From assembly GCA_016124585.1 (NCBI GenBank), contig WGNL01000024.1:62001-126000 (forward strand): a stretch of 64,000 nucleotides of DNA, read 5' to 3'. The stretch comes from Bacteroidota bacterium (lineage in GTDB: Bacteria; Bacteroidota; Bacteroidia; Chitinophagales; Saprospiraceae). This document shows positions 5,861 to 34,388 of this stretch, piece by piece. The position numbers and the translations under genes were made by a program. The stretch's first letter is position 1; every line of letters begins with the position of its first letter. Under the pieces are notes generated by a model. It was not told where the DNA came from. It saw only the letters and a list, made by a program, of their open reading frames with translations, and searched no databases.

Positions 5861-5992
5861 GGGTTTGACCTATTGTTCAATTGCACGGTCGTTAAAAGGG
5901 TAGTTTACCACTACAAAAAATTAACAATTTAACAATCTAGCAATTCAAACAATCTCCATAGTTTTTTCAATACATAGTTATTAATAATTGGC

Positions 5993-6019
5993 GGGCCGTC
6001 ATTTTGACGGCCCTCTTTT
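5993..6019 (+). terminator. Rho-independent terminator after the SprB-repeat gene
   Basis: A 9-bp GC-rich stem (GGGCCGTCA at 5993-6001 pairing with TGACGGCCC at 6005-6013) has a three-base loop and is followed by TCTTTTT. It lies 130 bases after the stop of the surface-protein gene and ahead of the next promoter-like element, so it probably insulates the two units. Confidence 0.8.
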
Positions 6020-6050
6020 TGTGAAAATTTCGATTTTTGAATAAACGGAG

Positions 6051-6058
6051 TAACTTTG
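6051..6058 (+). promoter_or_regulatory. Bacteroidota -7 element upstream of the UXS gene
   Basis: TAACTTTG matches the Bacteroidota housekeeping -7 consensus TAnnTTTG. It lies about 100 bases before the downstream start and after the preceding terminator. No well-spaced -33 TTTG box is visible, so this rests on the -7 match and the position. Confidence 0.5.
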
Positions 6059-6160
6059 CTTCGCAAATTTCTTCCCCTGTATTTGACAAATTATTGACCC
6101 AAAGGTGCGTGGAGCTGTCCCCTTTTCAACTTCCCACTGAATCCATTAAAACTTAAGATT

Positions 6161-7105
6161 TTGAAAAAAAGAGTTCTTATCACCGGTGCTGCCGGTTTCA
6201 TTGGCTCGCATCTTTGCGACAGGATGCTCGCTGAAGGCCACCACGTCATTGGCATGGACAACTTGCTCACAGGAAGTTTGGAAAACATCCAACACTTGTT
6301 TCCTCGTGACGATTTCGAGTTTTATCACCACGACATCACCAAGTTCGTCCACGTTCCAGGAGAAATTGACTATATCCTGCATTTTGCCAGCCCGGCCAGC
6401 CCCATCGACTATCTCCAAATGCCTATTCAAACTTTAAAGGTAGGGGCACTTGGAACGCACAATATGCTTGGCGTAGCGAAAGCGAAAGGTGCCAGAATTC
6501 TTGTGGCGTCCACTTCTGAGGTTTATGGAGATCCTCTTGTTCACCCCCAAGTGGAGGAATATTGGGGCAATGTGAACCCAGTTGGCCCACGTGGAGTATA
6601 TGATGAGGCAAAACGTTTTTTAGAGGCCATCACAATGGGCTACCATACATTTCACAAAGTTGAAACTCGGATTGTACGCATATTCAACACTTATGGCCCC
6701 CGTATGAGGGTGGAAGATGGGCGTGTGCTTCCTGCGTTTTTCTCTCAAGCCATCCGTGGGGAAGGTCTGACGATATTTGGAGACGGTACGCAAACCCGCA
6801 GTTTCTGCTATGTGGATGACCTTGTGGACGGGATTTACCGCTTGCTTTTAAGCGATTACGATCAGCCCATGAACATCGGCAACCCCCAAGAGATAACGAT
6901 GCTTCAGTTTGCTGATGAAATTTTAAATTTGGTGAAAAACCCAAAAGCACATATTGTATTCAGGCCGCTTCCTACTGACGACCCAAAACAACGTAAGCCT
7001 GATATCACGAAGGCTACCAATATTCTAGGTTGGGCACCAAAATTTGACCGGGAAGAAGGGCTTAAGCTCACTTATGAGTATTTTAAAAAAGCAGTTAAAG
7101 TTTAA
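6161..7105 (+). CDS. uxs: UDP-glucuronate decarboxylase (UDP-xylose synthase), extended SDR family
   Basis: This is an NAD-dependent short-chain dehydrogenase/reductase that is likely to convert UDP-glucuronate to UDP-xylose, a sugar donor for surface glycans. The Rossmann glycine pattern GAAGFIG is at residues 9-15, a TSEVYGDP active-site strand follows, and the catalytic pair is Y147xxxK151. The pattern [12 protein letters not shown] together with [16 protein letters not shown] near the C-terminus is typical of UXS rather than of epimerases. The start is a TTG at 6161, since no in-frame ATG stands before the Rossmann strand. At 314 residues the length is normal. It is followed at once by rfbB, with which it probably forms a sugar-nucleotide unit. 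A related SDR epimerase is the alternative. Confidence 0.88.
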
Positions 7106-7112
7106 TAATAGT

Positions 7113-7167
7113 CGATTGATAATTGATATTTTAAAGTAAAATGCTGGCAATTGTCAATTATCAATCG
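7113..7167. repeat. Inverted repeat between the uxs and rfbB genes
   Basis: A perfect 14-nt inverted repeat, CGATTGATAATTGA (7113-7126) and TCAATTATCAATCG (7154-7167), is separated by 27 AT-rich bases. The right arm lies 17 bases before the rfbB ATG. It has no T-tract, so it does not look like a terminator. The AATTGA words resemble the element at 63808-63880. Confidence 0.7.
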
Positions 7168-7183
7168 GCAATTCTCCATTTAT

Positions 7184-8230
7184 ATGAAGCGTATTCTCAT
7201 CACAGGCGGAGCAGGTTTTATAGGTTCTCATGTTGTCCGTTTATTTGTCAATAAATATCCAGATTACCACATCATTAACCTAGATAAATTGACCTATGCA
7301 GGTAATTTGGAAAACTTAAAAGATATTGAGGCTAAACCGAACTATACTTTTGTAAAAGGGGATATAACGGATGTTCCCGGGATGTTGGATTTATTCCAAG
7401 AATATAATTTTGATGGCGTCATTCATCTAGCAGCGGAGTCACATGTGGATCGTTCCATTACCAACCCGTTGGAGTTTATTGAGACGAATGTGATGGGTAC
7501 AATGAATTTGCTGAATGCCTCAAAATCAATTTGGAAAGGAAAAGAAGAAGGCAGGGTTTTTTACCATGTTTCTACGGATGAAGTATATGGTTCGTTAGGT
7601 GATGAAGGCTTTTTTGTTGAGACGACACCGTATGATCCCCGTTCGCCATACTCAGCATCCAAAGCGAGTAGCGACCACTTGGTTAGGGCCTATCACCATA
7701 CTTATGGTTTGCCGATTTTGGTGTCCAATTGTTCCAACAATTATGGCCCAAATCACTTTCCTGAGAAACTTATCCCGCTTGTAATCAATAATATCAAGCA
7801 TAATAAACCATTGCCAATATATGGCGATGGAAAATATACCCGTGACTGGTTGTGGGTGCTTGACCATGCAGAAGCTATTGATGTTATTTTTCATAAAGGA
7901 AAAATTGGTGAAACCTATAATATTGGCGGCAATAACGAACGCAAGAACATAGAATTGGTAACAACTCTTTGTGACATCATGGATGAATTATTGGGACGTA
8001 ATCCTGGTACAAGTAGCCAATTAATTACTTATGTTAAAGACCGACCAGGTCACGATCGTCGATATGCCATTGATGCTTCCAAATTGAAAAATGAACTTGG
8101 TTGGCAGCCAACTATTCAACCAGAAGAAGGCCTGCGGCTTACTGCTAAATGGTATTTGGAAAATGAAGAATGGTTAGAGCATGTTACGTCTGGCGCTTAT
8201 CAACAGTATTATGAAAAGCAGTATGATTGA
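7184..8230 (+). CDS. rfbB: dTDP-glucose 4,6-dehydratase
   Basis: This enzyme converts dTDP-glucose to dTDP-4-keto-6-deoxyglucose, the second step of dTDP-L-rhamnose and related deoxysugar synthesis for LPS or capsule. The NAD-binding motif GGAGFIG is at residues 8-14. The catalytic STDEVYG strand includes D132 and E133, and Y156-S-A-S-K160 is the SDR pair. LAAESHVDRSI and YNIGGNNERKN are RfbB signatures. The ATG at 7184 was chosen because it places the Rossmann strand directly at the N-terminus, as in the family; an upstream in-frame TTG at 7151 would run through the inverted repeat. rfbA, rfbC and rfbD are not in this window. Confidence 0.95.
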   Translation: MKRILITGGAGFIGSHVVRLFVNKYPDYHIINLDKLTYAGNLENLKDIEAKPNYTFVKGDITDVPGMLDLFQEYNFDGVIHLAAESHVDRSITNPLEFIETNVMGTMNLLNASKSIWKGKEEGRVFYHVSTDEVYGSLGDEGFFVETTPYDPRSPYSASKASSDHLVRAYHHTYGLPILVSNCSNNYGPNHFPEKLIPLVINNIKHNKPLPIYGDGKYTRDWLWVLDHAEAIDVIFHKGKIGETYNIGGNNERKNIELVTTLCDIMDELLGRNPGTSSQLITYVKDRPGHDRRYAIDASKLKNELGWQPTIQPEEGLRLTAKWYLENEEWLEHVTSGAYQQYYEKQYD

Positions 8231-8239
8231 TATGCAATT

Positions 8240-8300
8240 ATAATTAAAAAAAACGGGCTGCTGGGTTATCATAACCCAGCAGCCCGTTTTTTTTAATTAT
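8240..8300. terminator. 30-bp perfect bidirectional terminator hairpin
   Basis: Bases 8240-8269 are the exact reverse complement of 8271-8300, with only base 8270 between them. The arms contain A8/T8 tracts outside the GC-rich core CGGGCTGCTGGG, so each strand's RNA ends in a stable hairpin plus U-tract. It sits exactly between the convergent rfbB and gldG genes and serves both. Confidence 0.93.
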
Positions 8301-8310
8301 AACCATTATT

Positions 8311-9813
8311 TTATGCAGCATACCGTTCTTGCATCCGCTGCATCCGCAAATTCCGCTGCTTTTGGCTTCTAATAAATCCGAATAATAGTACTAATGCTAA
8401 TGGTAGGCCAAAGTTGAGATATTTAAGAAAGCTACGTTGGCCAGCCTTGTCTTCTCCAAGAAACTCATTGGCAATTGGGCGGGTCGTGACGCCTTTAGTC
8501 CTCAATTCAATCAATCCAGTATCATCGGAAAGCCAATCAATTGAATTGACCATTAGGCTAATATTGTCTTGACTTTGCCCCCTGCCTCCTTGGCCGGATA
8601 TTGGGAAATCGCCATCGCCAATCAGAACGATTTTGCCCCCTGTTCCAGGTTCCAGCACTCCGCCCATAACAATATTGGGTTGCTGAAAATCTGCATTTGT
8701 CCACTGCCTGTCCATGATTTGAAGACTGGCCGGAGCAGGTACTACACCTGATTTTGCCGAGGCCACCAATATTGGCGTAAACTTTCCTTGTCCTGTGTAT
8801 TTCACAGGGCTTGCAAACGGCAGCATGACTTGCTCCAAGCCTTTAGTTATTGGGTGCTCTGGAAATTTTGACAAAAGCGGAAGATAAGGGCATTGGATTG
8901 GTGTGTTAAATGTAAACATACCCTGCTGCTGCTGCACCTGCACTTGTCCACATTGGGCATCCACGACAAAGGAAGGTTCTACTTCCAAGCCTTTACTTTT
9001 AAGCCAATCTTCTAAACCAGTTTTTACTTCTGTTCCACTCTGGTTTTGTAAGTCGCCGTTGACTCTGTTCAGTGCAATAAAAAGGTTACCCCCTTTGGAA
9101 AGAAAATCGTCCAGTTTTGCCAGCTGGTCAGGTGGAAAACTATCAGTAGGACCAACAATGGCAAGTGCAGAAATGCCATCGAGTGGAGAGCTCCCCAAAT
9201 CTGCAGGAACCACATTGTACAAAACACTCAATGACTGATAAACTTGTTGAAACTCCTGCAATTGCGGCTCTCCTTGTCCTTGAAGAATGCCGACCGTTGG
9301 CTTATTTTTAACGGAAATCTTCTTAATACCTGTGCTAAGAGCGTATTCCATTCCTGTGCCTGAAGATACAACTGGGATAATCTCCTTTTCAGTGCCTTTT
9401 TTCAATACAGCACCTAAAAACGCCTTCTGCTGCTTGCTTTGGTCTTTGTCCCGCACACTTATGACTACGGGTTTGATGCCGTTTTGAGCCGCCTCCTGCT
9501 CTTTTTCTGGGCTAGTATTTGGGTTGATGAAATCAAATTGCAGCTTGCCTTTTGAGGCATTGCGGTATTCAACCAGCATTTCCTCAAAATCTTGGCGAGT
9601 CTTTAATAAATCTGGTGGGAGGTCTTCGGAAAAATAGGCAGTAACGTTCACCGTACTATCCAAATCCCTGACAATATCTTTGGTAGCTTTACTGAGTGTG
9701 TATTGACCGCCTTCTGTTAGGTCTAGTCGAAAAAAGAACCTTTGTGCCAAGAAATTCAGGAGCACAAGGACTCCAGCTAGAATTACGATGCTGGTGATGT
9801 TTATTTTTTTCAT
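8311..9813 (-). CDS. gldG: Gliding-motility ABC transporter auxiliary component GldG
   Basis: GldG is an inner-membrane protein with a large periplasmic part. With GldA and GldF it forms the ABC transporter needed for gliding in Flavobacterium johnsoniae. The sequence has an N-terminal membrane segment (about residues 9-25), then RFFFRLDLTEGGQYTLSKAT, the hallmark start of the GldG/ABC-2 auxiliary family. A periplasmic domain with GxGEPQLQEF and LDDFLSKGGNLFIALN follows, and a C-terminal membrane helix (about 465-485) ends in a basic tail. The 500-residue length is near the family norm. It is the last gene of a gldA-gldF-gldG cluster read leftward and ends at the shared terminator. Confidence 0.92.
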   Translation of the reverse strand: MKKINITSIVILAGVLVLLNFLAQRFFFRLDLTEGGQYTLSKATKDIVRDLDSTVNVTAYFSEDLPPDLLKTRQDFEEMLVEYRNASKGKLQFDFINPNTSPEKEQEAAQNGIKPVVISVRDKDQSKQQKAFLGAVLKKGTEKEIIPVVSSGTGMEYALSTGIKKISVKNKPTVGILQGQGEPQLQEFQQVYQSLSVLYNVVPADLGSSPLDGISALAIVGPTDSFPPDQLAKLDDFLSKGGNLFIALNRVNGDLQNQSGTEVKTGLEDWLKSKGLEVEPSFVVDAQCGQVQVQQQQGMFTFNTPIQCPYLPLLSKFPEHPITKGLEQVMLPFASPVKYTGQGKFTPILVASAKSGVVPAPASLQIMDRQWTNADFQQPNIVMGGVLEPGTGGKIVLIGDGDFPISGQGGRGQSQDNISLMVNSIDWLSDDTGLIELRTKGVTTRPIANEFLGEDKAGQRSFLKYLNFGLPLALVLLFGFIRSQKQRNLRMQRMQERYAA

Positions 9814-9850
9814 TTCAGATAACTTAATCGTTATGTTCTTTAGGCGCTAC

Positions 9851-10567
9851 TTAATTTTTTTTGGAAATATTCCACTCTGCCAAGAATAAACCTAGCACGA
9901 TGATGGTCCCGAAATAAATTAAATCCTTGGTATCCAAAACACCTCTAGATACAGAGTCGAAATGCGTTCTCATGCTTAGCGATTCAAAGAAACTACCAAG
10001 CCAACCAGTCATATTATTTGCAATAATGTCGAATAAGAACTGGAATATAAGACCTGCAAAAATGGAAAGTAAAAATGCAACAATCTGGTTATTGGTCAAA
10101 CTGCTTGTGAATAACCCGATACTGATATAGGCGGAACTCATCAATATCAATCCAAAATAACCGCACAATGTTGCCCCATGATCCATATTGCCTAAGTACG
10201 ATACCGTGATATAATAAGGCAGTGTAAATAATAATGCGATACAAACCATGAGTAAGCACGATAGGAATTTACCTATCACTACCTGTCTGTTCGTCACGTT
10301 TTTGGTAAGTAAAAGCTCTATGGTTCCAGTCCGTTTTTCTTCAGCAAACTGCCGCATGGTTATGGCAGGTACAAATATTAGCAGCGTTAATTGTGCTACT
10401 GCAAAGAAGACGTATAAATCGGCCTGTTTACGAAGAAAAACATCTGCCCCAATCAGCCAAGTAAAAAAACCTGTCAGCCCAAGAAATGCAATGAGCAAAA
10501 TATAGGCAACTAATGAGTCAAAATAACTGCCCAATTCTCGTTTAGCAATAACCCAAGTTGGATTCAT
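9851..10567 (-). CDS. gldF: Gliding-motility ABC transporter permease GldF
   Basis: This is an ABC-2 type permease of the gliding-associated transporter. It has 238 residues with about six hydrophobic segments. The start MNPTWVIAKRELGSYFDSLVAYI is typical of GldF. The FAEEKRTGTIELLLTKNV segment after the second helix is the ABC-2 coupling motif that contacts the ATPase. The gap to gldG is only 37 bases and the two are surely co-transcribed. gldA lies 87 bases upstream on the same strand. The usual partners, GldG and GldA, are both adjacent, which supports a complete transporter. Confidence 0.93.
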   Translation of the reverse strand: MNPTWVIAKRELGSYFDSLVAYILLIAFLGLTGFFTWLIGADVFLRKQADLYVFFAVAQLTLLIFVPAITMRQFAEEKRTGTIELLLTKNVTNRQVVIGKFLSCLLMVCIALLFTLPYYITVSYLGNMDHGATLCGYFGLILMSSAYISIGLFTSSLTNNQIVAFLLSIFAGLIFQFLFDIIANNMTGWLGSFFESLSMRTHFDSVSRGVLDTKDLIYFGTIIVLGLFLAEWNISKKN

Positions 10568-10654
10568 GATAATATGGTTATAGTTTCGAAATGCTATATT
10601 GAAAAGTATTTATCGCATTTATACTGTCCAACAATATGGCATCTCAACAATCAA

Positions 10655-11578
10655 TTAATTCAAAGTTAGGTCTCGGAAAATATCTTCAAGCCTTGTTTCC
10701 AAAGCCACCATTTCAGTCAGTGCCCATTTGTTTTTTACACAAAGATTGAATATATCCCGATTGGATAATAGCTCAGCTTGGCTCTGTACTTCAAAGCGTT
10801 GGCCTTCTGTGTCCAATAATTCGACAGCGGCCACACTTGGTAGTGTTTTTAACTGTTGGGAAATATCATTGCTATTGCCATCTTCTATCCGAACATGCAA
10901 TACCTGCTGGCCATGCGCTTGCTTGCGCAAAGTAGCGGCGGTGCCATCTGCTACGATATGCCCTTTATTGATGATTAGAATTCGGTCGCAAGTAGCTTCT
11001 ACTTCAGGCAGGATATGTGTACTGAGGATGACCGTTTTTTCTTTACCGATATTACGAATCAAAGCCCGAATTTCGACTATCTGGTTAGGATCAAGGCCCG
11101 TGGTTGGTTCATCTAGAATGAGGATTTCTGGGTCATGAATCATGGCCTGCGCCAATCCAACCCGCTGGCGATAACCTTTGGATAGTTCACCGATTTTTTT
11201 GTGTTTTTCCTCATCAAGGCCACAGTCCCGCACCATTTTTCGAATCCTGTCATTAACTTGTGACTTCGATACTCCTTGAATTGCTGCACAAAAAGCAAGG
11301 TAATCAATCACTGGCATGTCCAGATAAAGTGGGTTGTGTTCAGGTAGGTACCCAATATGCCGCTTCGTTTCACCGGATTTGACTGACTTACCACCTAGCC
11401 ATACTTCACCACCATCCGACTCAAGATATCCTGTGATGATTTTCATGGTGGTGGTCTTGCCAGCGCCGTTTGGTCCAAGGAATCCAAGAATTTCCCCGGT
11501 TTTCACTTCAAACGAAATCTGGTCAACTGCTTTTTGCTGACCGTAGCTTTTTGTCAATTCCTGTATTTTAATATCCAT
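10655..11578 (-). CDS. gldA: Gliding-motility ABC transporter ATPase GldA
   Basis: This cytoplasmic ATPase energises the GldFG permease. Walker A GPNGAGKT is at residues 35-42, the ABC signature LSKGYRQR at 132-139, Walker B ILILDEP at 152-158 and the switch histidine at H188. The remaining ~100 residues form the C-terminal extension typical of ABC-2 export ATPases and GldA (LxxLPSVAAVELLD...). At 307 residues it has normal length. It is the first gene of the cluster, with a -7-like element at 11650 on its strand. It could in principle serve another ABC-2 exporter, but its place next to gldF and gldG makes GldA the best call. Confidence 0.92.
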   Translation of the reverse strand: MDIKIQELTKSYGQQKAVDQISFEVKTGEILGFLGPNGAGKTTTMKIITGYLESDGGEVWLGGKSVKSGETKRHIGYLPEHNPLYLDMPVIDYLAFCAAIQGVSKSQVNDRIRKMVRDCGLDEEKHKKIGELSKGYRQRVGLAQAMIHDPEILILDEPTTGLDPNQIVEIRALIRNIGKEKTVILSTHILPEVEATCDRILIINKGHIVADGTAATLRKQAHGQQVLHVRIEDGNSNDISQQLKTLPSVAAVELLDTEGQRFEVQSQAELLSNRDIFNLCVKNKWALTEMVALETRLEDIFRDLTLN

Positions 11579-11649
11579 AAGCTGCTAAAAATTAAGCTTT
11601 CATGAATTAAAATGTTGTCAAACGCCGCTGTTGGCGCTGTAACTGTGCG

Positions 11650-11657
11650 CAAAAATA
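11650..11657 (-). promoter_or_regulatory. Candidate -7 element for gldA
   Basis: Read on the minus strand this is TATTTTTG, a match to TAnnTTTG, 72 bases before the gldA start. A -33 box at proper spacing was not seen, and the sequence is AT-rich, so a chance match is possible. Confidence 0.35.
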
Positions 11658-11686
11658 GAACCCTGCATTTTTCTAAAGGAAACGTT

Positions 11687-11701
11687 TGCAAATCATTTGC
11701 A
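11687..11701. promoter_or_regulatory. Palindrome TGCAAATcATTTGCA in a divergent promoter region
   Basis: A perfect 7+1+7 palindrome lies in the 287-base space between the divergent gldA and Clp-like genes, about 30 bases upstream of the gldA -7 candidate. Its size and place suit an operator for a dimeric regulator. No regulator gene lies nearby, so its function is only inferred. Confidence 0.4.
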
Positions 11702-11865
11702 TTTCTATTGCCTGTGAAATTCGACATATCATTCCCATTACGATCAGTCATTAACTCCCATGACTTTTCCTTTTCTTTGCCATCCAAATTCAGCTAAGAA
11801 TGGCAAGGTCGAAGAATTTGGGCTCGAAAATCGTCATTCTAATTACATGCTGGGTTGTCTGAATC

Positions 11866-14800
11866 ATGCCCGTAACCACCCTCAATATCCCAGTACTTGT
11901 GCTGCCAACAAAGCTTGATGGTCAAGCTGCTTACCAAGTGCAGCCTGTTTTCTTCTCTGCGCCGGTAGGGGTGCATCGGCGGTACAGCGAGGCGGTGTCA
12001 ATGTTTAAGAAGCAAATGAAGCGCCGTTATACTTCCTTTACTTTTTCACGAGCGACGGCGGAGCAGTTGTTGTGGTTTAAGTTTGGGCCTGAAGTGAAGT
12101 TGAACCAATATTCATTGGCGTTCAGCATTGGAACTAATTTCATCAAAGGGCGCTTTGCAGTGGCCACTTTTGAATGGCAAGGTCTGACATTTGCCTGCTT
12201 GCCTAGTTTCAACCACATCAATTTCATCGTTCGTCAAAATGAAAAAGGTAAAATCGACTTGAAATCTGAGACAGAACGAGTGGTAAAGGAACTACTTCGA
12301 AGGTTTAAACAACTGGAAGGAAACGAATTCGATGCAGAGGCATACTATTCTGACAAAAAGGAATTTGTGACAACTGTCCAGTTGGAGGTTAAATTCAAAG
12401 AACCAAGTTTCAACTTTGAAAATGCCAGCGTGGATGGAATATTGGCTGCTTTTCGTTTACAAGAAAAATTTGATGGTGCTGATGAAATTGACAAGGTGGC
12501 TACTGAAATTTGTTCCCGTTATCCTGAAGAACTAGATCGTGCTTGGTATCAGGAAACCCACGTAGAGCAATTGCTGCAACTGGTATTTAAGAAAGAAAAC
12601 AACTCACCACTTGTGCTAGTCGGCCCTGAAGGTGTTGGGAAGCACACCATTATTCAGGAGGTTGCCTACCGATACATGTCCGGACTTTCAAAGGATTCCG
12701 ACGATGATTCCCGCCGACAAAATCTCTGGCATTTGAACCCCAATCGGGTCATAGCGGGCATGAGTATCGTGGGGCATTGGGAGAAACGGTTCGAGGCAAT
12801 TTTGCAATTCTTGCAATCACCACGAGGCAAGGGGAGTTTGCCTGATAAACTTTTGGTGGATAATCCCGTGGCGCTTCTTCGCATCGGGAAAGCAGCGGGT
12901 AGTGACCTTTGCCTAGCGACTGTCCTCAAACCATTTTTGGAAAAAAGGAAAATTCAGTTGGTGCTGCTAGCCACACCTGAAGAGTGGAAAATCATTCAGG
13001 AGAGTGACAGGGGCTTTGCCGATTTGTTCCAGGTTTTGCGAGTGCCAGAGCCAGATGTGCCAACTGCCATCAAAATCGTGCTGCAAAATCGCAGTTTGTT
13101 GGAGCTTCAAACCGGTAGTTCTATCACCGTACCTGCCATCAGCCAGTTGTTTGCCATCCAGCGCAACTACCTGAAAAACAGAGCCTTGCCAGGTTCTGTG
13201 ATGCGTCTGCTTACGCAACTGACGATCAAATACAGCCGTTCGCTGATTGATGCGCCTCAGGTCCGTGAAGAGTTTAAGTCGTTCAGCGGAATGCAGGAGC
13301 AGATTTTCGAAGAGCAAACGCCAATCGAAAAAGACGAAGTGCGCCGCAGCCTTGCCCTGGAATTGGTTGGTCAACCCAATGCGGTGGAGGCACTTTCCGG
13401 CGCCATACACCTTGTGAAGGCTCGCCTCACCGACAGGAATCGCCCGCTTGCTTCCTTCCTTTTTATTGGACCAACGGGTGTGGGGAAAACACATGCCGCC
13501 AAATTGCTCAGCAAAACGATACTCGGCACTGACACAAAGTTGATGCGTTTTGACATGAACGAGTACATTGATGCTGGTGCCCTCCATCGGCTGATTGGCG
13601 ATTTTCAAAACCCAGAGGGCCAGCTGACAGGCAAGGTTCGCTACCAGCCTTTTGGCGTGGTGCTTTTGGACGAAATTGAAAAAGCACACCCCAGTATCCA
13701 CGACCTTTTACTACAAGTGCTTGACGACGCTCGTTTGACGGATAGTTTGGGCCGCACTGTGGATTTCTCCAACACTATCATTGTCATGACCTCTAACCTT
13801 GGCGCAAGGGAAGCTGCTTCGCAAATTGGCTTTGCAAGCTTGGCTCGGGATGAAAGTGCCATCTACCGTAAAGCCGTAGAACAGGCATTTAGGCCAGAAT
13901 TGGTCAACAGAATCGAGCAGATAGTGGTATTCAACCCGCTGACATTTAACGAGATTGAAAAAATTGCCCAGCTACAGATTCGAGAATTGCTACAGCGTGA
14001 TGGCTTCGTCCGTCGGACCACGATTGTGAATGTGTCGGCTAGTGCGCTGGACTGGGTGGCACGCCGTGGTTTCGACGCAAGAATGGGCGGGCGGGCGCTG
14101 AAGCGGCAAATCGAGCGGGACTTGACGCTGCTTTCTGCGGAACAACTCATCAAGTCAACTTCTGAGACCCCCGTCATCCTTGATATTTTGCTGGAAAATG
14201 ACCGATTGGTCCCACAAATCACTCCAATTGAATTAGCTGAACAACTGTCAGGTGGTTGGTTGCCAACTATTCCGGAAGAACAGGAAGCTATCCGGTTTTT
14301 CAATAAACTGCTTCATCGATTGGAGAAAATCGAGAAGGAGGTTGCAAATTTTGAGCGTCGTCAGGAGAAACAAGGTCATCTTTACAATGTAGCAGGCCAA
14401 GATGCAGATTGGAAGCATTACGATTTCAAGAATAAAATCGCCAGCTTAAAGGAAAGCCTTCAGTTCAAGGCTTTGAGGCTTCGTGAAAGGCGTTTGACCA
14501 TGACCCCTGCAGTACCATTTCGACTCAAAAGAGTTTACTTGAACGATTTTGATGAAAGTGGCAAAGCTCGAAAAGAAGCACTGCGTGACAAGCATTTTCA
14601 GGAAGAAGGGATGAAAACGCTTCGGGAGGAATACCGCCATCAAAGCCCACAATTTGATAGTTTCGAGACGGATTATTTGGTCAGCTATTTTGACCTGACT
14701 TTTTTGGAAAGTATGCTGGAAGGTTTTTTGAAACAAAAAACAGACAAGGTGGTGATTCAATTGACTTCCACTGTGACCAATGCGGGCGAAGCTGAAATGG

Positions 14801-15138
14801 AATTTTTGGTAAATCAATACAGCCAACTGTTGTCCTCGATGGATATTTCACACAACATACTCCCGAATTTGCAAGGAATCGATGCGGAGGAGTACAGGCT
14901 TGGACAACTGTTGGCAAGTGAGACTGGGCTACATTTGTTTTACTCGCAGGGTGGGACACCCATTCCCATCCGTTTTTCTTTAGAGGTAGGTGGTGAGGTT
15001 TTACCTCCACCGCCTTTGGTTATCCGCATTTACGATGATAAAAATACCCAGTTCGACCTTCGCACAGGCTACTCCAACACCTATGCCATGACGCCGGAGG
15101 AGATGAAATTATTGCTGTTCGGAGGGATGTTCCAATAG
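11866..15138 (+). CDS. Aberrant Clp/HSP100-type double AAA+ ATPase with unique N- and C-terminal domains
   Basis: This 1,090-residue protein has an unrecognised N-terminal domain (1-185), two Clp-type AAA+ modules and a C-terminal extension (about 790-1090) with coiled-coil-like helices near 800-870. In D1, Walker A is GPEGVGKHT (253-261), but the Walker B glutamate is replaced (LLVDN, D332-N333), the arginine fingers align with FADLFQ, and the KYRG pore loop reads SIVG (300-303). D2 is catalytically intact: GPTGVGKT (535-542), LLDE (D602-E603), MTSN sensor 1, FRPELVNRIE finger and GGRALKR sensor 2. However, the GYVG pore loop is missing (GDFQNPEGQ, 578-586). The tripeptide I654-G655-F656 stands where ClpA and ClpC carry their ClpP loop. 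No ClpB-like middle domain is visible. The function is unknown; it is not a typical ClpB, ClpA or ClpC. Confidence 0.85.
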   Translation: MPVTTLNIPVLVLPTKLDGQAAYQVQPVFFSAPVGVHRRYSEAVSMFKKQMKRRYTSFTFSRATAEQLLWFKFGPEVKLNQYSLAFSIGTNFIKGRFAVATFEWQGLTFACLPSFNHINFIVRQNEKGKIDLKSETERVVKELLRRFKQLEGNEFDAEAYYSDKKEFVTTVQLEVKFKEPSFNFENASVDGILAAFRLQEKFDGADEIDKVATEICSRYPEELDRAWYQETHVEQLLQLVFKKENNSPLVLVGPEGVGKHTIIQEVAYRYMSGLSKDSDDDSRRQNLWHLNPNRVIAGMSIVGHWEKRFEAILQFLQSPRGKGSLPDKLLVDNPVALLRIGKAAGSDLCLATVLKPFLEKRKIQLVLLATPEEWKIIQESDRGFADLFQVLRVPEPDVPTAIKIVLQNRSLLELQTGSSITVPAISQLFAIQRNYLKNRALPGSVMRLLTQLTIKYSRSLIDAPQVREEFKSFSGMQEQIFEEQTPIEKDEVRRSLALELVGQPNAVEALSGAIHLVKARLTDRNRPLASFLFIGPTGVGKTHAAKLLSKTILGTDTKLMRFDMNEYIDAGALHRLIGDFQNPEGQLTGKVRYQPFGVVLLDEIEKAHPSIHDLLLQVLDDARLTDSLGRTVDFSNTIIVMTSNLGAREAASQIGFASLARDESAIYRKAVEQAFRPELVNRIEQIVVFNPLTFNEIEKIAQLQIRELLQRDGFVRRTTIVNVSASALDWVARRGFDARMGGRALKRQIERDLTLLSAEQLIKSTSETPVILDILLENDRLVPQITPIELAEQLSGGWLPTIPEEQEAIRFFNKLLHRLEKIEKEVANFERRQEKQGHLYNVAGQDADWKHYDFKNKIASLKESLQFKALRLRERRLTMTPAVPFRLKRVYLNDFDESGKARKEALRDKHFQEEGMKTLREEYRHQSPQFDSFETDYLVSYFDLTFLESMLEGFLKQKTDKVVIQLTSTVTNAGEAEMEFLVNQYSQLLSSMDISHNILPNLQGIDAEEYRLGQLLASETGLHLFYSQGGTPIPIRFSLEVGGEVLPPPPLVIRIYDDKNTQFDLRTGYSNTYAMTPEEMKLLLFGGMFQ

Positions 15139-15226: not shown

Positions 15227-15568
15227 ATGGCTACCATTAAATTTACATTCGAAGATAAATCAATTGCTCCTGTCACGGTTAATGACGTGCCGGTGGATAT
15301 GTCCATTTTGGAGGTTACGGAAGAGCATGATATTCACCTAAATCATAATTGTGGCGGCGTTTGCGCTTGTAGCACTTGCCATGTGTACGTGAATAGCGGT
15401 GAAGACTCATTGGAAGAAATCTCGGATAAGGAAGAGGATTTCGTAGACCGAGCCATCAATCCCCGTTTGGAGTCCAGGCTTGGCTGTCAATGTATTATTT
15501 TGGAAGAGGATGCTGTTATCGAAGTTGAAATTCCTGACCAGAAACGCATCATCGGACACGAACATTGA
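15227..15568 (+). CDS. fdx: 2Fe-2S ferredoxin, ISC type
   Basis: This is a small cytoplasmic electron carrier of the adrenodoxin/ISC ferredoxin class, used in Fe-S cluster assembly. Cluster ligands are seen as C42-x5-C48-x2-C51 and C87 in the context NCGGVCACSTCHVYV and LGCQC. Extra cysteines at 46 and 89 are not ligands in the family. The 113-residue length and acidic character are normal. The next gene is iscX, another ISC accessory gene, 60 bases downstream, which supports an Fe-S assembly role. iscS, iscU, iscA and hscAB are absent from the window. Confidence 0.95.
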   Translation: MATIKFTFEDKSIAPVTVNDVPVDMSILEVTEEHDIHLNHNCGGVCACSTCHVYVNSGEDSLEEISDKEEDFVDRAINPRLESRLGCQCIILEEDAVIEVEIPDQKRIIGHEH

Positions 15569-15628
15569 AAAATGACAGCGGGATAGAAGCTACTCTACTT
15601 CCACCAATCACAAATTACTTTTAGAATT

Positions 15629-15877
15629 ATGGCTTTCAAAGATATCGAAGACCTCCCTATTTACTGGAAAGATCATGAAGACGTTGCCATGCGCCTCTAC
15701 GAGCGTTTTGGCGATGACTTTAACGAGGGCAAAATTTACCGTATTCGTTTCACCGAACTGATAGATTGGGTCATGGAAATTCCCAATTTTGAAGGGAAAC
15801 GGGAAGATTGCAACGAGGGGCACCTTGAGCAAATTCAAGCCAAATGGGTGTACGAATGGCGGGACAATAATAAGTAG
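15629..15877 (+). CDS. iscX: Fe-S cluster assembly accessory protein IscX
   Basis: This is a small acidic protein of the IscX (YfhJ, DUF528) family. In E. coli the family binds IscS and iron and tunes the rate of cluster assembly. The family pattern is clear: YWKDHEDVAMRLYE..., then YRIRFTELIDWVMEIPNF, and then a C-terminal helix IQAKWVYEW. At 82 residues it is slightly longer than the 66-residue E. coli protein because of inserts around residues 26-36. It follows fdx, as it does in many ISC operons. Confidence comes from the aligned aromatic/acidic pattern and the neighbour together. Confidence 0.88.
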   Translation: MAFKDIEDLPIYWKDHEDVAMRLYERFGDDFNEGKIYRIRFTELIDWVMEIPNFEGKREDCNEGHLEQIQAKWVYEWRDNNK

Positions 15878-15967
15878 TTGTCAGATAAAAATTGTCAGTA
15901 GACCTTCAATAGTGGTTATTTTGATGCCGACTGTTGCTTGCAGGCTTTTAAACCGTCAAAATTGAAA

Positions 15968-16504
15968 ATGACACCGGATAACAACGAACGCTTCCAACAT
16001 GCCGGCAACGTGCTTAGCCGGTTCCGTGATATTCATACCTTTATATTTGATGTTGACGGCGTGTTCACCAATGGCCAAGTATTGGTGACCGAAAATGGTG
16101 ACCTGCTGCGTTCAATGAGCGTACGGGATGGTCAAGCGATTCGGATGGCCGTGGAGGAGGGTTTTCGCATTTTGATTTTAACGAAAGGCAAATCCGAAGG
16201 TGTCAATATCCGCTTGCGGGATTTGGGTGTCCGGGACATCATTTCTGGCCTACAGAACAAACTAAAAGCTTACGAGGAGTTCCTAGATGCCTATGAGTTG
16301 GACGAAGAGGGCATCCTTTACATGGGAGATGACCTACCAGATTTGGAAGTGATGCGAAGGGTCGGCCTACCTACTTGCCCAGTTGATGCAGTGCCGGAAA
16401 TTCGACAAATTTGCCACTATGTTTCACCATTGAAGGGTGGGGATGGTTGTGTTCGAGATGTCATTGAAAAAGTGATGAAATTGAAAGGAGTGTGGAACTG
16501 GTAA
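15968..16504 (+). CDS. kdsC: HAD-family phosphatase, KdsC-like (KDO-8-phosphate phosphatase)
   Basis: This is a C0-cap HAD phosphatase that probably removes phosphate from 3-deoxy-D-manno-octulosonate 8-phosphate in KDO synthesis for lipid A-core. The nucleophile and acid/base are D28 and D30 in FIFDVDGVFTNGQV. LILTKGKS is motif II and YMGDDLPDLEVM is motif IV. The C-terminal PLKGGDGCVRDVIE tail is the substrate-closing segment typical of KdsC/YrbI. The ATG at 15968 was preferred to an upstream TTG (15938), giving 178 residues, close to the family size. The related CMP-acylneuraminate-type phosphatases share the motifs, so the exact substrate is inferred. Confidence 0.85.
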   Translation: MTPDNNERFQHAGNVLSRFRDIHTFIFDVDGVFTNGQVLVTENGDLLRSMSVRDGQAIRMAVEEGFRILILTKGKSEGVNIRLRDLGVRDIISGLQNKLKAYEEFLDAYELDEEGILYMGDDLPDLEVMRRVGLPTCPVDAVPEIRQICHYVSPLKGGDGCVRDVIEKVMKLKGVWNW

Positions 16505-16516
16505 ATTTGTTTCACG

Positions 16517-17440
16517 ATGAAAATTACCGCTTTTTTCAAACTTGTCCGTTTCCCAAACCTCCTTATTGTTGCGCTCACGCAATACTTGCTACAGTACTTG
16601 GTACTTCTGCCAGCTTTAAAAGTTGCTGGCTTGACTCCTATTCTTGATGATTTTCATTTTTTTTTGTTGGTCTTTACTACTATGCTGATTGCCGCTGGCG
16701 GCTACATCGTCAACGATATTTTAGACTATGAAAGTGACTTAATCAACAAGCCGCATGCAGTATTTGTAACCCGGGTATTTTCCAAGAAATTGGTCGAAGT
16801 GTTTTATGTAACAATTTTATTGTTGGGACTCGCAATTGCCTGGTATTTAGCGATTTATGTTGGAAAACTGATGCTTGTCTTAATCTACCCTGCTGCATGT
16901 TTGATACTTTATTTTTATTCAAAAAAGCTGAAGAAAATTCCGTTCTGGGGCAATGTAACCGTAGCAGTGTTCTGCGCATTTGTGGCGGGAGTTGTCTTGT
17001 TTGCAGAGCGTCAAAACTTCTCCCAAATGCCTGATGAGGGTGGGGTAGTGAAGGTGCTGTTTGGGGGCTATCTCTGGTTCGCTTTTCTATCGACCCTTTT
17101 GCGAGAAATCATCAAGGATTTGGAGGACATGGAAGGGGATGCCCGCCTTGGGCTTAGGACGCTGCCCCTGCAATTTGGTGTGGACGCTGCAAAAAAATCG
17201 GTCTTCTTAATAGGGGTATTTCTGCTTTTTTCCCTTCTAATATTTGTTTACTGGCTCATGCAAAGGCAAGCGATGTTCAGTGCCATATTTAGCATAGTGG
17301 GTGTTGCATTTCCCTTGATTTATACCCTAATTATGTTGAAAAAAGCCAAAACTAAATCAGATTTTTCCAAAGCAAGTTTTTTAGCAAAAATTATCATGCT
17401 GAGTGGCCTGGTTTTATTGTTGGTTTGTAAATTCGCCTAA
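16517..17440 (+). CDS. UbiA-superfamily prenyltransferase
   Basis: This integral membrane enzyme joins a prenyl diphosphate to an acceptor. It has about eight to nine hydrophobic helices and both Mg-diphosphate motifs: NDILDYESD (66-74) and DLEDMEGD (201-208). The 307-residue length is usual. Close Bacteroidota relatives are commonly annotated as geranylgeranylglycerol-phosphate geranylgeranyltransferase-like, but the acceptor (quinone precursor, glycerol phosphate or other) cannot be told from sequence alone. It starts 12 bases after the kdsC-like stop and ends 8 bases before the next gene, so it belongs to a tight operon. A UbiD decarboxylase lies 4 kb downstream but is separated by oppositely oriented genes. 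Confidence 0.85.
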   Translation: MKITAFFKLVRFPNLLIVALTQYLLQYLVLLPALKVAGLTPILDDFHFFLLVFTTMLIAAGGYIVNDILDYESDLINKPHAVFVTRVFSKKLVEVFYVTILLLGLAIAWYLAIYVGKLMLVLIYPAACLILYFYSKKLKKIPFWGNVTVAVFCAFVAGVVLFAERQNFSQMPDEGGVVKVLFGGYLWFAFLSTLLREIIKDLEDMEGDARLGLRTLPLQFGVDAAKKSVFLIGVFLLFSLLIFVYWLMQRQAMFSAIFSIVGVAFPLIYTLIMLKKAKTKSDFSKASFLAKIIMLSGLVLLLVCKFA

Positions 17441-17448
17441 AACAAAAC

Positions 17449-17922
17449 ATGGCAAAAAAAGTCGAATTTACTGGTGAAATGGTGGCATTGGATGGTTTGC
17501 CCAATAATGGAGCGGTTGTTTTTCCATATGATTTGAAGGAAACATTTGGGAAAAAATCAGTCAAGGTCAAAATCACTTTTGACGGCATCGAATACCGTGG
17601 GCTTTTGAAAAGTATGGGCGGTGATTGTGTCTATTGTTTGATTAGAAAAGACATCCGAGAAAAATTGGGCAAACAGCCTGGTGACTTAATTGAAGTAACT
17701 GTTCTGGAAGATACAGAAGAAAGGATTGTCGCCGTACCACCTGATTTTCAACAAGTTATGGACGAAAATCCTAAAATGAAAGAGGTGTTTGAAAGATTTT
17801 CCTACACCTGCAAAAAGGAATATGTCAACTGGATTGAATCAGCCAAGCGGCCTGAAACCCGGCAAAATCGGATTCAAAAATCAGTGGAAATGATAAGCTC
17901 GGGTAAAAAAGAACCGAGATAA
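17449..17922 (+). CDS. YdeI/OmdA-associated protein with DUF1905 domain
   Basis: This is a 157-residue cytoplasmic protein with two parts. Residues about 5-95 form a DUF1905-type small beta barrel (VEFTGEMVALDGLPNNGAVVF...GDLIEVTVLED). The remainder is the 'bacteriocin-protection, YdeI/OmpD-associated' helical tail with its characteristic YVNWIESAKRPETRQNRI. The molecular function of this family is not established. The gene follows the prenyltransferase by 8 bases and is probably the last conventional gene of the operon. Confidence 0.85.
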   Translation: MAKKVEFTGEMVALDGLPNNGAVVFPYDLKETFGKKSVKVKITFDGIEYRGLLKSMGGDCVYCLIRKDIREKLGKQPGDLIEVTVLEDTEERIVAVPPDFQQVMDENPKMKEVFERFSYTCKKEYVNWIESAKRPETRQNRIQKSVEMISSGKKEPR

Positions 17923-17984
17923 TATTCCTGACTCAACCAACCAAAACTTTGGTATTTGCGTCTATTGATTCGATTTTTTACTTA

Positions 17985-18048
17985 AATGTTTGATTCTGTA
18001 GGAGATTTTGGCACGTTTTTTAAAAAGATTATAAAAGAATCAAACATT
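17985..18048. repeat. 13-nt inverted repeat inside the small ORF
   Basis: AATGTTTGATTCT (17985-17997) is the exact reverse complement of AGAATCAAACATT (18036-18048), with 38 bases between. The left arm covers the candidate ATG at 17986, so pairing could hide the start codon of the small ORF. Confidence 0.6.
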
Positions 18049-18120
18049 ACAAAAAGAGTTTGCGTTAAACTTCAAAAGAACCTAAGAATTAAGTTTCATA
18101 CAATTAGTGAGAGTAAATGA
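17986..18120 (+). CDS. Possible 44-residue basic small protein (unrecognised)
   Basis: An ATG at 17986 opens 44 codons, beginning MFDSVGDFGTFFKKIIKES and ending HTISESK, with the TGA at 18118-18120. The product would be basic and soluble. The stop falls 5 bases before a strong terminator hairpin, which is why a real gene, or a non-coding RNA, is plausible. No family is recognised, and no strong ribosome-binding site is visible. It could equally be the 3' untranslated part of the operon above. Confidence 0.35.
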   Translation: MFDSVGDFGTFFKKIIKESNITKRVCVKLQKNLRIKFHTISESK

Positions 18121-18124
18121 CGCC

Positions 18125-18157
18125 GCAGCCACTTCACATAAGTGGCTGCCTTTTTTT
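18125..18157 (+). terminator. Rho-independent terminator
   Basis: The stem GCAGCCACTT (18125-18134) pairs with AAGTGGCTGC (18140-18149) over a 5-base loop and is followed by C and seven T. It ends the plus-strand operon that began near the ferredoxin gene, or the small ORF, before the opposing rtcB gene. Confidence 0.9.
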
Positions 18158-18165
18158 GACCAATT

Positions 18166-19566
18166 TCAACTGTCCATCCGCACAATCTTCGGGGTAAACG
18201 TCCCAATCACTTCCACCAAATCCTTCTGAAAATCCATCACTTTTTTAATGTCCTTGTAGGCCATCGGCGCCTCGTCCAGACCACCGCCAAACAGTTCAAC
18301 GCCGTTCGCTTTCAGCACTTTTTTCAATTCATGTTCGGTGAAGGAATTCTTGGCCTTTGTCCTTGAAAAAAGCCGCCCAGCACCATGCGAAGCGGAATTT
18401 AAGGAAAGCGGGCTACCTTTCCCCCGAACGATGTAGCCGGGATTTACCATCGAACCGGGAATGACCCCAAGCACACCCTTACCGGCTGGGGTAGCACCTT
18501 TCCGATGTACGATGACTTCCCGGCCATCCGGCAGCGTTTCTTTCCAGGCAAAATTGTGGTGGTTCTCGACCATCGCCAGCGGCTTTTCACCAAGCGCCTT
18601 CTCCATCCTAGCGTGGATGTGGTGATGGCAGGCCGAGGCATAATCACCTGCCAGGTTCATGGCCAGCCAGTATTCCTGACCAGCTTCCGTATCAAGGCCC
18701 AGCCAAGCTAGGTGTTTGGCTTCCTTCGGCAAAGGCGTGGTTTTCATGGCAAGGTCGGTGTAGTGCTTCGCAATGGTGGCACCCAATCCCCGTGAACCGG
18801 AGTGGGAAAGCACGGCGAGGTATTGACCCACGGCCACCCCAAATTCATTCTGGGCATCCAGTATTTCCACGATGCCGAATTCCACGAAGTGATTACCGGA
18901 ACCAGACGAGCCAATTTGCCGGAAAGCCTTGTCCTTCAAGGGCTTCACCATTTGGATTTCGTTGAATTCTGGCCGCTCGAAAATGGCGTCGTCCATCGGC
19001 TTCTTCATTTCTTGGTAGCCGAATGCAGTATTTTCATTCAGCATCAAACCGAGTTTCGTACGGTTTTTTTCCAAAAACTCTGGCTTGAGGTCATAAAAAC
19101 TCAGGCACATCCGGCAGCCGATGTCCACCCCGACGCCGTAAGGAATCACAGCATTCTCTGTCGCCAAAACACCACCAATGGGTAGGCCATAACCTTGGTG
19201 AGCATCCGGCATCAGCGCTGCTTCGACCGTAATGGGCAGCCGGGCAGCCACGTCCATTTGGTCAATTGCCCCTTTTTCGATGGCATCCAAGCCGTAGGCT
19301 TTGTAATGTTTTGGGCTGGCATTCAATGGGATTTCAGCAACTTGGGTGGGCACTTGCTCCACCAACTCAAATACAATTCGACCCAACACCTCATCATCGG
19401 CGTAGCCTTCTGGGTTTTCCAGCACGGCTTGCAGCATGGCCAGCACCTTGTCCTTTTTCTCTTTTTTGAAATGCTGGTGTACCACGTTGATGGCCATGCC
19501 GATGGCCCGCCCCTCTGGGTAGCCGAGTTTGATAAGTTCCTTGCCGGAGATTTTGATTTTTGACAT
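18166..19566 (-). CDS. rtcB: RNA-splicing ligase RtcB
   Basis: This is a GTP- and Mn-dependent RNA ligase that joins 2',3'-cyclic phosphate (3'-phosphate) and 5'-OH RNA ends in RNA repair. Metal-site motifs are visible: D121-A-H123 in PDAHQGYG, D148 and C151 in VGVDIGCRM, HSGSRGLG, and HHNFAWKE. The guanylylated histidine is H394 in NSASHGAGRLFSR. An N-terminal ~85-residue helical extension precedes the catalytic core, so the protein is longer (466) than E. coli RtcB (408). Neither rtcA nor an rtcR regulator is adjacent, and no sigma-54 site was found upstream. The base composition looks more GC-rich than neighbouring genes. Confidence 0.95.
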   Translation of the reverse strand: MSKIKISGKELIKLGYPEGRAIGMAINVVHQHFKKEKKDKVLAMLQAVLENPEGYADDEVLGRIVFELVEQVPTQVAEIPLNASPKHYKAYGLDAIEKGAIDQMDVAARLPITVEAALMPDAHQGYGLPIGGVLATENAVIPYGVGVDIGCRMCLSFYDLKPEFLEKNRTKLGLMLNENTAFGYQEMKKPMDDAIFERPEFNEIQMVKPLKDKAFRQIGSSGSGNHFVEFGIVEILDAQNEFGVAVGQYLAVLSHSGSRGLGATIAKHYTDLAMKTTPLPKEAKHLAWLGLDTEAGQEYWLAMNLAGDYASACHHHIHARMEKALGEKPLAMVENHHNFAWKETLPDGREVIVHRKGATPAGKGVLGVIPGSMVNPGYIVRGKGSPLSLNSASHGAGRLFSRTKAKNSFTEHELKKVLKANGVELFGGGLDEAPMAYKDIKKVMDFQKDLVEVIGTFTPKIVRMDS

Positions 19567-19609
19567 GATAGGACAGAACCAGCAGGGGTGGGATTTAGTT
19601 CATGATGGC

Positions 19610-19698
19610 CGCAAGAGCCGCTGCGTTCAACTCTTGCTGGAACTGTTGGCTTTCGCACGGTAATGGGTACAGCTTTTTGAGAAGACTTGGGCCAACTG
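19610..19698. repeat. Dispersed repeat, composite copy (two halves joined)
   Basis: Bases 19610-19649 are an inverted copy of 20477-20515 (5 differences counting one gap over about 40). Bases 19639-19698 are a direct copy of 20830-20889, sharing GCACGGTA, GTACAG and AAGACTTG with GCCAACTG. The two relationships overlap here, so this copy holds both halves of a longer element. It lies between rtcB and the lipoprotein gene. Confidence 0.75.
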
Positions 19699-19702
19699 GT
19701 GG

Positions 19703-20293
19703 TTAACCCTTATAATATGATTTGCCAAATGTTGTAAAGTCAAAGCTTATTGGATCCAACTTTCTCACCTTTTTTCCTTTAATCTCAAACTTATTGAACC
19801 CTTTGTCTTGAATTCTAAACCTAAGCTCGTCATCCCCAATCATCAGATAAGCGTAGCGCTGCTGCAAATAAATATGTTTTTTCTTCGTGGCCAGTAAAGG
19901 CGATACAAAAAAAACAATTGAGGTATCCGTGGCTATGTCTATCGAATCAGAAAAATAGGAATAGGCCCATTTTAGACTGTCTGGGATAATCACATTGAAA
20001 GTGTCAAGAGGATAATGTGATAACAACAAGTCGCAGTACATCGTATCACGGAACCCATAATCTTTATTTGGAAACAGAACAGGATTAAAGGTCATTTTTG
20101 GGCCGCAATATATTTTTGAAGGAATGGTGGTGGTTTGTTTAAGTCCTTCTAAGTTTACAAAAGAAAATATCAAGTCATTAGATAGTTTTGCGTGATATGC
20201 TTTGCTTTTGATATAATATCTTCCCGAACAGCCTAGAATTGTAATAATGCTACAAAGCGCTGCAATTATAATGGATAGATAGCAAGCCCTCAT
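19703..20293 (-). CDS. Orphan lipoprotein
   Basis: This 196-residue protein begins with a hydrophobic signal and a lipobox ending ITILG-C22, so it is expected to be lipid-anchored in the envelope. No domain is recognised. The mature part is rich in aromatic residues and beta-type segments and ends in ISFDFTTFGKSYYKG. The gene is flanked by non-coding dispersed repeats on both sides (19610-19698; 20477-20515 and 20830-20889), and its base composition is AT-richer than rtcB. It is likely to be a strain- or lineage-specific gene; its function is unknown. Confidence 0.7.
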   Translation of the reverse strand: MRACYLSIIIAALCSIITILGCSGRYYIKSKAYHAKLSNDLIFSFVNLEGLKQTTTIPSKIYCGPKMTFNPVLFPNKDYGFRDTMYCDLLLSHYPLDTFNVIIPDSLKWAYSYFSDSIDIATDTSIVFFVSPLLATKKKHIYLQQRYAYLMIGDDELRFRIQDKGFNKFEIKGKKVRKLDPISFDFTTFGKSYYKG

Positions 20294-33370: not shown

Positions 33371-33425
33371 GAGTAATTCGAATTTGGGAAAATAATTGAA
33401 TGTTGAAAACAAGCAACGTGCAATC

Positions 33426-34388
33426 CTAGCGCTCAAGCGCGTATGAGATATTTATTTCGTGCGAACCGCCAGTGTACGGTCCAAATGTGGTAAATGAATA
33501 ATCGAAACCATAGCCAATCCGTATCGTGTTGTCAAAGCCAAGGTTTTCACCGAGCAGGAACCCAGCTTCAATGTGCATGGCCTTGGATGTAGCTCCACCT
33601 GCACCAATCCAAAAATTTTGGGCCATTTGGTAACGAAGGTTGAAGTCTACATTTACAGGTACATGAGGTGCAGATTTTACCCAAACAGAAGGCTCCAAAA
33701 AGCCTTCGTTCCGCAAAAACTTGATGTAGCCCAACATGCCGTAGAGGTGCTGTACCCTTGTGGTGTAGAATTTACCATTAGTGTCCTCAAATTGGAGGTC
33801 GAGGCCAATGGCCTGTGGCATGGATACACCTCCATAAACATAGTCGTCTTCAAAGAACCCGCCATCTAATTTTTTATAGGCAAAAACACCTACGCCGACA
33901 TCGGGGAAAAGCTTATTCTGGTCATCACCAGAAAGGATGTCATTGGATTGGCGGAGCCGAATTTCAGAGGCGTTGACCCGATACTGAACCATTCCGAAGG
34001 AAAGACCTGCACAAAGCCCGCTGTAATAAGGGTCATCGGAAAGCACACCACCAATTCGGCCATAAAGCCCTGTGAATCCTGTCGGGCCTGTCTGGTCATT
34101 AATTAGATAGCCACCGCCCATGATGCTAACAGGACTACCCTCAGTGTACAGGAAATCACCCCGAAGATTAGCTGTGGTTGGAGCACCTTCAAAGCCTTGC
34201 CATTGCACTCGATACGATGCACCAAAAGTTAGGTTCTGGCCATAAGCTAGGTAGCTACTGCCTGGTGCTGCTGGGTTGATGATGGATTGGTTTTCCCGAT
34301 ATTGGGAAAAAAGGGAAAGTTGCTGGGAAAAAGTTTTACCTGCTATGCACATAAATAGGCATACCAGATACGGTTGTAATCTGCTCAT
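33426..34388 (-). CDS. PorP/SprF-family T9SS outer-membrane protein
   Basis: This is a beta-barrel-type outer-membrane protein of the PorP/SprF family. Members pair with individual T9SS type B cargo and help export or attach it. Signs are a signal peptide MSRLQPYLVCLFMCIAGKTFS, then QQLSLFSQYRENQSIINPAAPG (the family's N-terminal hallmark), LTFGASYRVQWQGFEGAPTT, and a C-terminal strand ending in EINISYALER. The ATG at 34388 was chosen because an upstream in-frame ATG lies before a -7 promoter element at 34412-34419. It lies 55 bases upstream of the giant adhesin gene and probably forms an operon with it. Confidence 0.93.
   Translation of the reverse strand: MSRLQPYLVCLFMCIAGKTFSQQLSLFSQYRENQSIINPAAPGSSYLAYGQNLTFGASYRVQWQGFEGAPTTANLRGDFLYTEGSPVSIMGGGYLINDQTGPTGFTGLYGRIGGVLSDDPYYSGLCAGLSFGMVQYRVNASEIRLRQSNDILSGDDQNKLFPDVGVGVFAYKKLDGGFFEDDYVYGGVSMPQAIGLDLQFEDTNGKFYTTRVQHLYGMLGYIKFLRNEGFLEPSVWVKSAPHVPVNVDFNLRYQMAQNFWIGAGGATSKAMHIEAGFLLGENLGFDNTIRIGYGFDYSFTTFGPYTGGSHEINISYALER

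Follow-up and report, generated by a model that had tools for sequence, protein, structure and literature searches.

An apparently undescribed HSP100 subtype of Bacteroidota with a release factor-like C-terminus

Much is known of HSP100 rings, and as much work has gone into the release factors of class I, yet we found no report, in the text accessible in the open PMC literature, of the two being joined in one protein. The gene that we call B appears to encode such a fusion, and the question it raises is what an HSP100 ring could do with a first AAA module (D1) that looks dead, an active second module (D2) without its pore loop and a C-terminus resembling a release factor. B lies at 11866-15138 on the forward strand of a 64,000-nucleotide stretch (hereafter the window; G000:C33:62001-126000) from the 6.6 Mb genome of a Saprospiraceae bacterium, and encodes 1090 amino acids from its ATG. 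An earlier note on this DNA had described a repurposed Clp ATPase and supposed it to be an undescribed HSP100 subtype; it had missed the release factor body, the two sister subunits A and C, and the fact that one of the losses in D1 is not general. Our analysis points to an HSP100 subtype that is conserved and apparently undescribed, and suggests a machine driven by ATP whose target may be the ribosome.

A conserved family with an altered ring

The Pfam models place B among the HSP100 proteins, since AAA_2 (149.2 bits against a cut-off of 27, E 1.5e-43) is followed by ClpB_D2-small (40.6 bits against 21.9, E 2.6e-10) in the D2 part, amino acids ~490-765 (13333-14160). D1 is related to that of the Clp proteins, as phmmer aligned residues 223-490 with ClpB D1, and ClpA matched in a single stretch from D1 to D2 (223-762), so that a long M-domain is lacking. 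However, B stays well below the NCBIfam cut-offs for both ClpB, its best model, which matches the D2 region (326 bits of 1232), and ClpA (313.6 of 993). Both of the end domains that the earlier note had proposed are real. The N-terminal one, residues 1 to ~225 (11866-12540), is common to A, B and C and has a weak likeness to a HicB/dsRBD fold, and the C-terminal one, residues ~771-1090, is release factor-like; neither end has a curated Pfam match.

The motif changes were counted by alignment in 43 non-redundant B orthologues. In D1, the Walker A sequence GPEGVGKH (residues 253-260, 12622-12645) keeps Lys259 in 37 of the 43, with Arg in the other six. The Walker B glutamate, replaced in B by Asn (D332-N333, 12859-12864), is present in none of them (Asn in 40 and D, K or H in the remainder), and no orthologue has an arginine at the arginine-finger positions 386 and 387 (D-L in B, 13021-13026), so both features of a hydrolysis-competent D1 are lost throughout, as had been claimed. 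By contrast, all four catalytic residues of D2, Lys541 (Walker A), Glu603 (Walker B), Arg682 (arginine finger) and Arg743 (sensor-2), are found in 43/43, bearing out the statement that its ATPase motifs are intact. The GYVG loop had been reported as deleted from D2, where B has the shortened GDFQNPEGQ (residues 578-586, 13597-13623), and this also holds: no G[YF][VI]G loop is present in any of 48 B rows (an alignment that includes duplicates and partial frames) or in any of the 49 rows that A, B, C and X contribute to the tree alignment, while all 16 normal HSP100 rows have it. The family thus lacks the D2 loop of threading disaggregases. Judged by these motifs, A, B and C are predicted to have a D1 incapable of hydrolysis and a D2 with the complete ATPase set and no substrate-gripping pore loop.

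The loss of the D1 pore-loop aromatic, also proposed for B (SIVG, residues 300-303, 12763-12774), stands only in part. In the set of 43, position 301 is I, V, M or T in 42 and Phe once (L077), but Y or F is kept in all but one of 11 C rows (the exception, L101, being an A), in 3/3 X rows and in seven of eight B rows from outside Saprospiraceae; the aromatic was therefore lost later. Most C proteins of Saprospiraceae (e.g. L079:8465-10741) keep this aromatic and have ED instead of DE at the D1 Walker B, and C may be able to grip substrate where A and the Saprospiraceae B cannot.

The sister genes carry the same D2 deletion and are encoded in the same genome: A as a 1112-amino acid frame on another contig (L080, G000:C28), and C, of about 780 amino acids (L079), on the contig of B and about 15 kb upstream of it. 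Among 40 relatives searched, B is present in 15, its own genome counted, and these are accompanied by A in 14 and by C in 13 (from fetched loci, by alignment, BLAST, profile or tree); the A and C counts leave out G013, and none is listed for C in G011, both of them incomplete genomes. No one-stretch D1-D2 match was among the matches listed for the other 25 genomes, a test that A proteins matching in two stretches would escape. The named relatives of B come mostly from Saprospiraceae or are metagenome-assembled genomes of Bacteroidota; a cultured one, Aureispira sp. CCB-QB1, has B as well (L073). In L077 the three genes follow each other in the order A (5398-8625), B (8622-11729) and C (11726-13978) with overlaps of 4 nucleotides, an order also found in G335 to G339, five genomes related to it, and in G040, from another Bacteroidota family. 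The genes A, B and C thus co-occur, and they form A-B-C clusters in two lineages.

In a tree of 65 D1-D2 cores, 16 of them from normal HSP100 proteins, A (including L101, which the motif counts had kept in their 15-row group C), B and C form clades with support of 0.999, 1.000 and 0.999, and the single-gene relatives X form a basal grade. The whole family is split from the normal rows with support of 1.000 in the unrooted tree, the same bipartition being printed as 0.897 after rooting, and B falls outside the clade of the ClpC-like protein of its own genome. As A, B and C each divide between the same two lineages, the triplication must predate their split, or else the set moved together. One X protein (L225:10315-15012), from a single-contig 2.4 Mb genome of the same phylum, has TPR repeats ahead of its AAA modules. 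The family is rare in the surveys sampled: the N-terminus of B was found in 2/295 genomes of the class, that of the window included, and a strong family match in at least three of 395 genomes of the phylum, a lower bound given that two candidates per genome were scored.

That B might simply have decayed from a normal Clp ATPase, as the loss of several motifs could suggest, we regard as practically untenable and have rejected. Recurrence of the losses in orthologues had been named beforehand as the check, and the same ones are seen in 43/43 B proteins beside invariant catalytic residues in D2; the D2 deletion is common to A, C and X, and the tree separates the family from normal HSP100 proteins. 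The closest known relatives are rather ClpA and ClpC, which share with B the two AAA modules, the AAA_2 and D2-small composition with its full catalytic set and the absence of a long M-domain, but not the dead D1, the missing D2 loop, the three paralogues or the release factor-derived end; ClpB differs also by its M-domain and its GYVG. Torsins, which are related to HSP100, also lack an aromatic pore loop; they have a single AAA module, a location in the endoplasmic reticulum and no release factor body. Two of the A proteins match the Pfam Torsin model weakly, under its cut-off (E 2e-4 and 5e-4).

The C-terminus and the ribosome

Both parts of the class I release factor fold can be recognized in B: a helical bundle like domain 1 at residues ~804-955 (14275-14730), placed from a model in which the VIA alignment to 1gqe spans model positions 35-320, and a part like superdomain 2/4 at residues ~959-1090 (14740-15135). 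Even with the E threshold raised to 10, Pfam PCRF gave no match at the locus of B, and the relationship was traced through X. Three X proteins score above the PCRF cut-off of 24 bits (L209 36.4, L213 (L225) 52.7 and L214 (L226) 31.4) and reach 74.1, 68.8 and 33 bits, respectively, with NCBIfam prfB, far under its cut-off of 370, which a partial release factor body would lead one to expect. In pairwise hhalign comparisons, the C-termini of six X proteins aligned with most of RF2 (2.2e-21) with the GGQ domain mostly facing gaps, and the C-termini of B and A aligned with those of X at 7.9e-7 and 1.2e-5, values that none of 40 column-shuffled controls reached in either case. Direct comparisons of B or A with RF1 or RF2 are weak, at about 1e-3 (0.06 for A with RF1), and for the three pairs tested no shuffle out of 40 attained the observed value.

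Seven residues, E1019, G1021, H1023, R1054, Y1056, D1064 and R1066, are invariant in B alignments of 17 and 20 rows and are the signature residues of RF2 (ExGVH, IRxY and DxR). The wider pattern RxY...DxR is present in 41 of 50 B rows, with seven of the nine misses coming from outside Saprospiraceae. What is lacking is equally consistent. GGQ is absent from 78 of 79 tails, a set that may include duplicates, and the remaining tail has it at another place. The tripeptide with which release factors read the stop codon, SPF or PxT, follows ExGxH in 29/29 RF1 and RF2 control frames having that motif, and in 0/50 B, 0/18 A and 0/6 X genes (the seven X rows represent six genes, one of the 19 A rows has no ExGxH, and the B rows here and in the loop counts below include partial frames). 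With GGQ and the tripeptide lost and the body retained, both termination activities would be gone and the body kept. By profile and signature, then, the C-terminus of B, and more weakly that of A, appears to be the body of a class I release factor that lacks both the GGQ domain and the stop-codon tripeptide. A G-x-x-E motif nearly invariant in B (residues 974-977, 14785-14796) occupies the place of the GGTE/GGDE helix tip that lies near the codon in release factors; by eye it is missing from X, and it could reflect either a contact that has been preserved or coincidence.

Diverged release factors in special roles have precedents. Dom34/Pelota is described as a paralogue of release factors that has no catalytic Gln and is used in ribosome rescue, and PrfH, which is coupled to RtcB, as keeping the catalytic Gln and lacking the N-terminal helical domain, in the available text of a review of release factor evolution (PMC6514570). 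That text deals with RF1, RF2, ArfB and PrfH and mentions no AAA+ fusion, and the main text, as available, does not contain the term clp. The B family shows the opposite arrangement to that of PrfH, as it keeps the N-terminal helical domain and loses the catalytic one, and an RtcB-like gene is no established conserved neighbour of it. The likeness to Dom34/Pelota of archaea and eukaryotes is one of idea only. Its fold is unrelated to that of B, and it works with a GTPase partner and no AAA ring.

The reading that we favour, at somewhat under an even chance, is that B belongs, as one subunit, to an HSP100 family of three paralogues whose release factor bodies dock the ring on the ribosome, where D2 drives a remodelling without threading. 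A, B and C would build a single hetero-oligomeric ring with D1 as a static scaffold, and the bodies of A and B, as mimics incapable of reading stop codons or releasing peptides, would dock at the ribosomal A site or factor-binding centre. The ATP cycling of D2 would then drive a conformational change by which ribosomes that are stalled or inactive are dislodged, split or cleared, with no polypeptide being drawn through a pore, and the kept IGF-type tripeptide (see below) may let the ring hold ClpP at the ribosome. This mechanism as a whole, with release factor mimics in the A site, a ring that parts or resets ribosomes and perhaps the recruitment of ClpP, is more doubtful. If true, it would be a bacterial, ATP-driven AAA+ counterpart to the GTP-driven Dom34-Hbs1 route; the family would show the HSP100 fold working without threading and would point to a so far unrecognized step that requires ATP, takes place on the ribosomes of bacteria and may be linked to proteolysis.

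Several observations weigh against docking on the ribosome: the body is degenerate in A and in some B, it is absent from C, and no translation genes were seen among the neighbours of B and X looked at. The last two would also suit a body that now serves as an oligomerisation or adaptor module for another protein in a complex remodelling some non-ribosomal assembly, as would the loss of both termination functions and the drift of the C-terminal end in the B copies of G335-G339, where the match to the B profile ends at 861-868 of 1089. We hold this, one of the two chief rivals, to be unlikely, although worth serious attention, as the residues kept invariant in B include the RF2 signature and X retains the release factor body together with its domain 1.

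The IGF tripeptide and ClpP

Proteins that partner ClpP generally carry a docking tripeptide, and the earlier note had pointed to an IGF at the corresponding position of B (residues 654-656, 13825-13833). Most members of the family retain this candidate. Among the 43 B orthologues the first position is I, L or V in 42, the second G in 39 and the third F or Y in 41, and the looser form [ILVM]G[FLYW] is found in the loops of 43/50 B, 19/20 C, 13/20 A and 5/6 X, against five of 15 normal HSP100 loops. These five all belong to the clade of L081, the ClpC-like protein of the genome, whereas the tripeptide is absent from its ClpB (L082) and from the nine other normal loops. L082 matches the NCBIfam ClpB model over its full length with 1205 bits for a cut-off of 1232 and L081 reaches 950, 'ClpC-like' being our reading, as NCBIfam lists no ClpC model; two other normal rows, L118 and L119, reach 644 and 614 bits with the TssH model, whose cut-off is 885, and score better with that of ClpB.

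One could therefore imagine that the D2 ring docks ClpP through [ILV]G[FLYW] and opens or feeds it without D2 threading, the end domains choosing the client, and the genome does encode two strong ClpP matches. The co-occurrence with clpP that had been proposed as a check tells us little, however, since 12 of 14 control genomes gave a ClpP match too. It is also difficult to see how D2 could translocate a protein into ClpP when the pore loop is missing from all 49 members, and the tripeptide is lacking in 7/20 A (ISW or ISL, the former in six Saprospiraceae proteins) and 7/50 B. We consider this alternative, the other chief rival, in which the family would have no role on the ribosome, to be unlikely; the kept tripeptide may still serve to dock ClpP, or it may have been left over from an ancestor of the ClpC-like kind.

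Gene neighbourhood

A further possibility is a guard or conflict system, in which ribosomes that are damaged or inhibited would be sensed by the release factor body, and the ring would set off their repair or a shutdown. Its patchy distribution would fit, as would the resemblance of D2 to DolB and PDC-M37B of PADLOC and the surroundings of the cluster in G040 (L170:13102-14550 and 17865-19878), where a schlafen-AlbA/HATPase gene lies between A and B and HNH and AAA_21 genes lie upstream of A, in what looks like an insertion of conflict-type genes. PrfH and RtcB have been proposed as a pair sensing ribosome damage (available text of PMC6514570), and an RtcB-family RNA ligase-like gene is found 3 kb downstream of B (18166-19566, reverse strand), matching the model of release-factor-H-coupled RtcB below its cut-off. 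But this gene is beside B in only 5 of 49 other loci, from three close genomes, many loci being too short to show it, and we did not retain it as a partner. The PADLOC matches cover the D2 module only, and a defence assignment was discarded on that account; no nuclease or toxin domain is among the Pfam matches listed for the members scanned. Taken together, we rate a guard function as improbable.

Directly upstream of B and on the opposite strand are gldG, gldF and gldA-like genes of a gliding-motility ABC transporter (8311-11578), named after their best NCBIfam models, which score below cut-off. B is followed on its own strand (15227-17440) by genes for a 2Fe-2S ferredoxin, an Fe-S assembly protein (PF04384), an ORF that we take to be KdsC-like and a UbiA prenyltransferase. 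Of 49 other B loci, 12 have the ferredoxin at the same place, with certain genomes represented twice among them. In some relatives the gld genes and the ferredoxin, KdsC-like and UbiA genes likewise lie next to B, a position that we attribute to synteny and not to a functional link. An HtrA-like protease next to X in L226, with an ORF of the same size at the same place in L227, was considered as a partner and set aside. Farther along the window, the reverse strand carries an ORF of 1881 amino acids (27791-33436).

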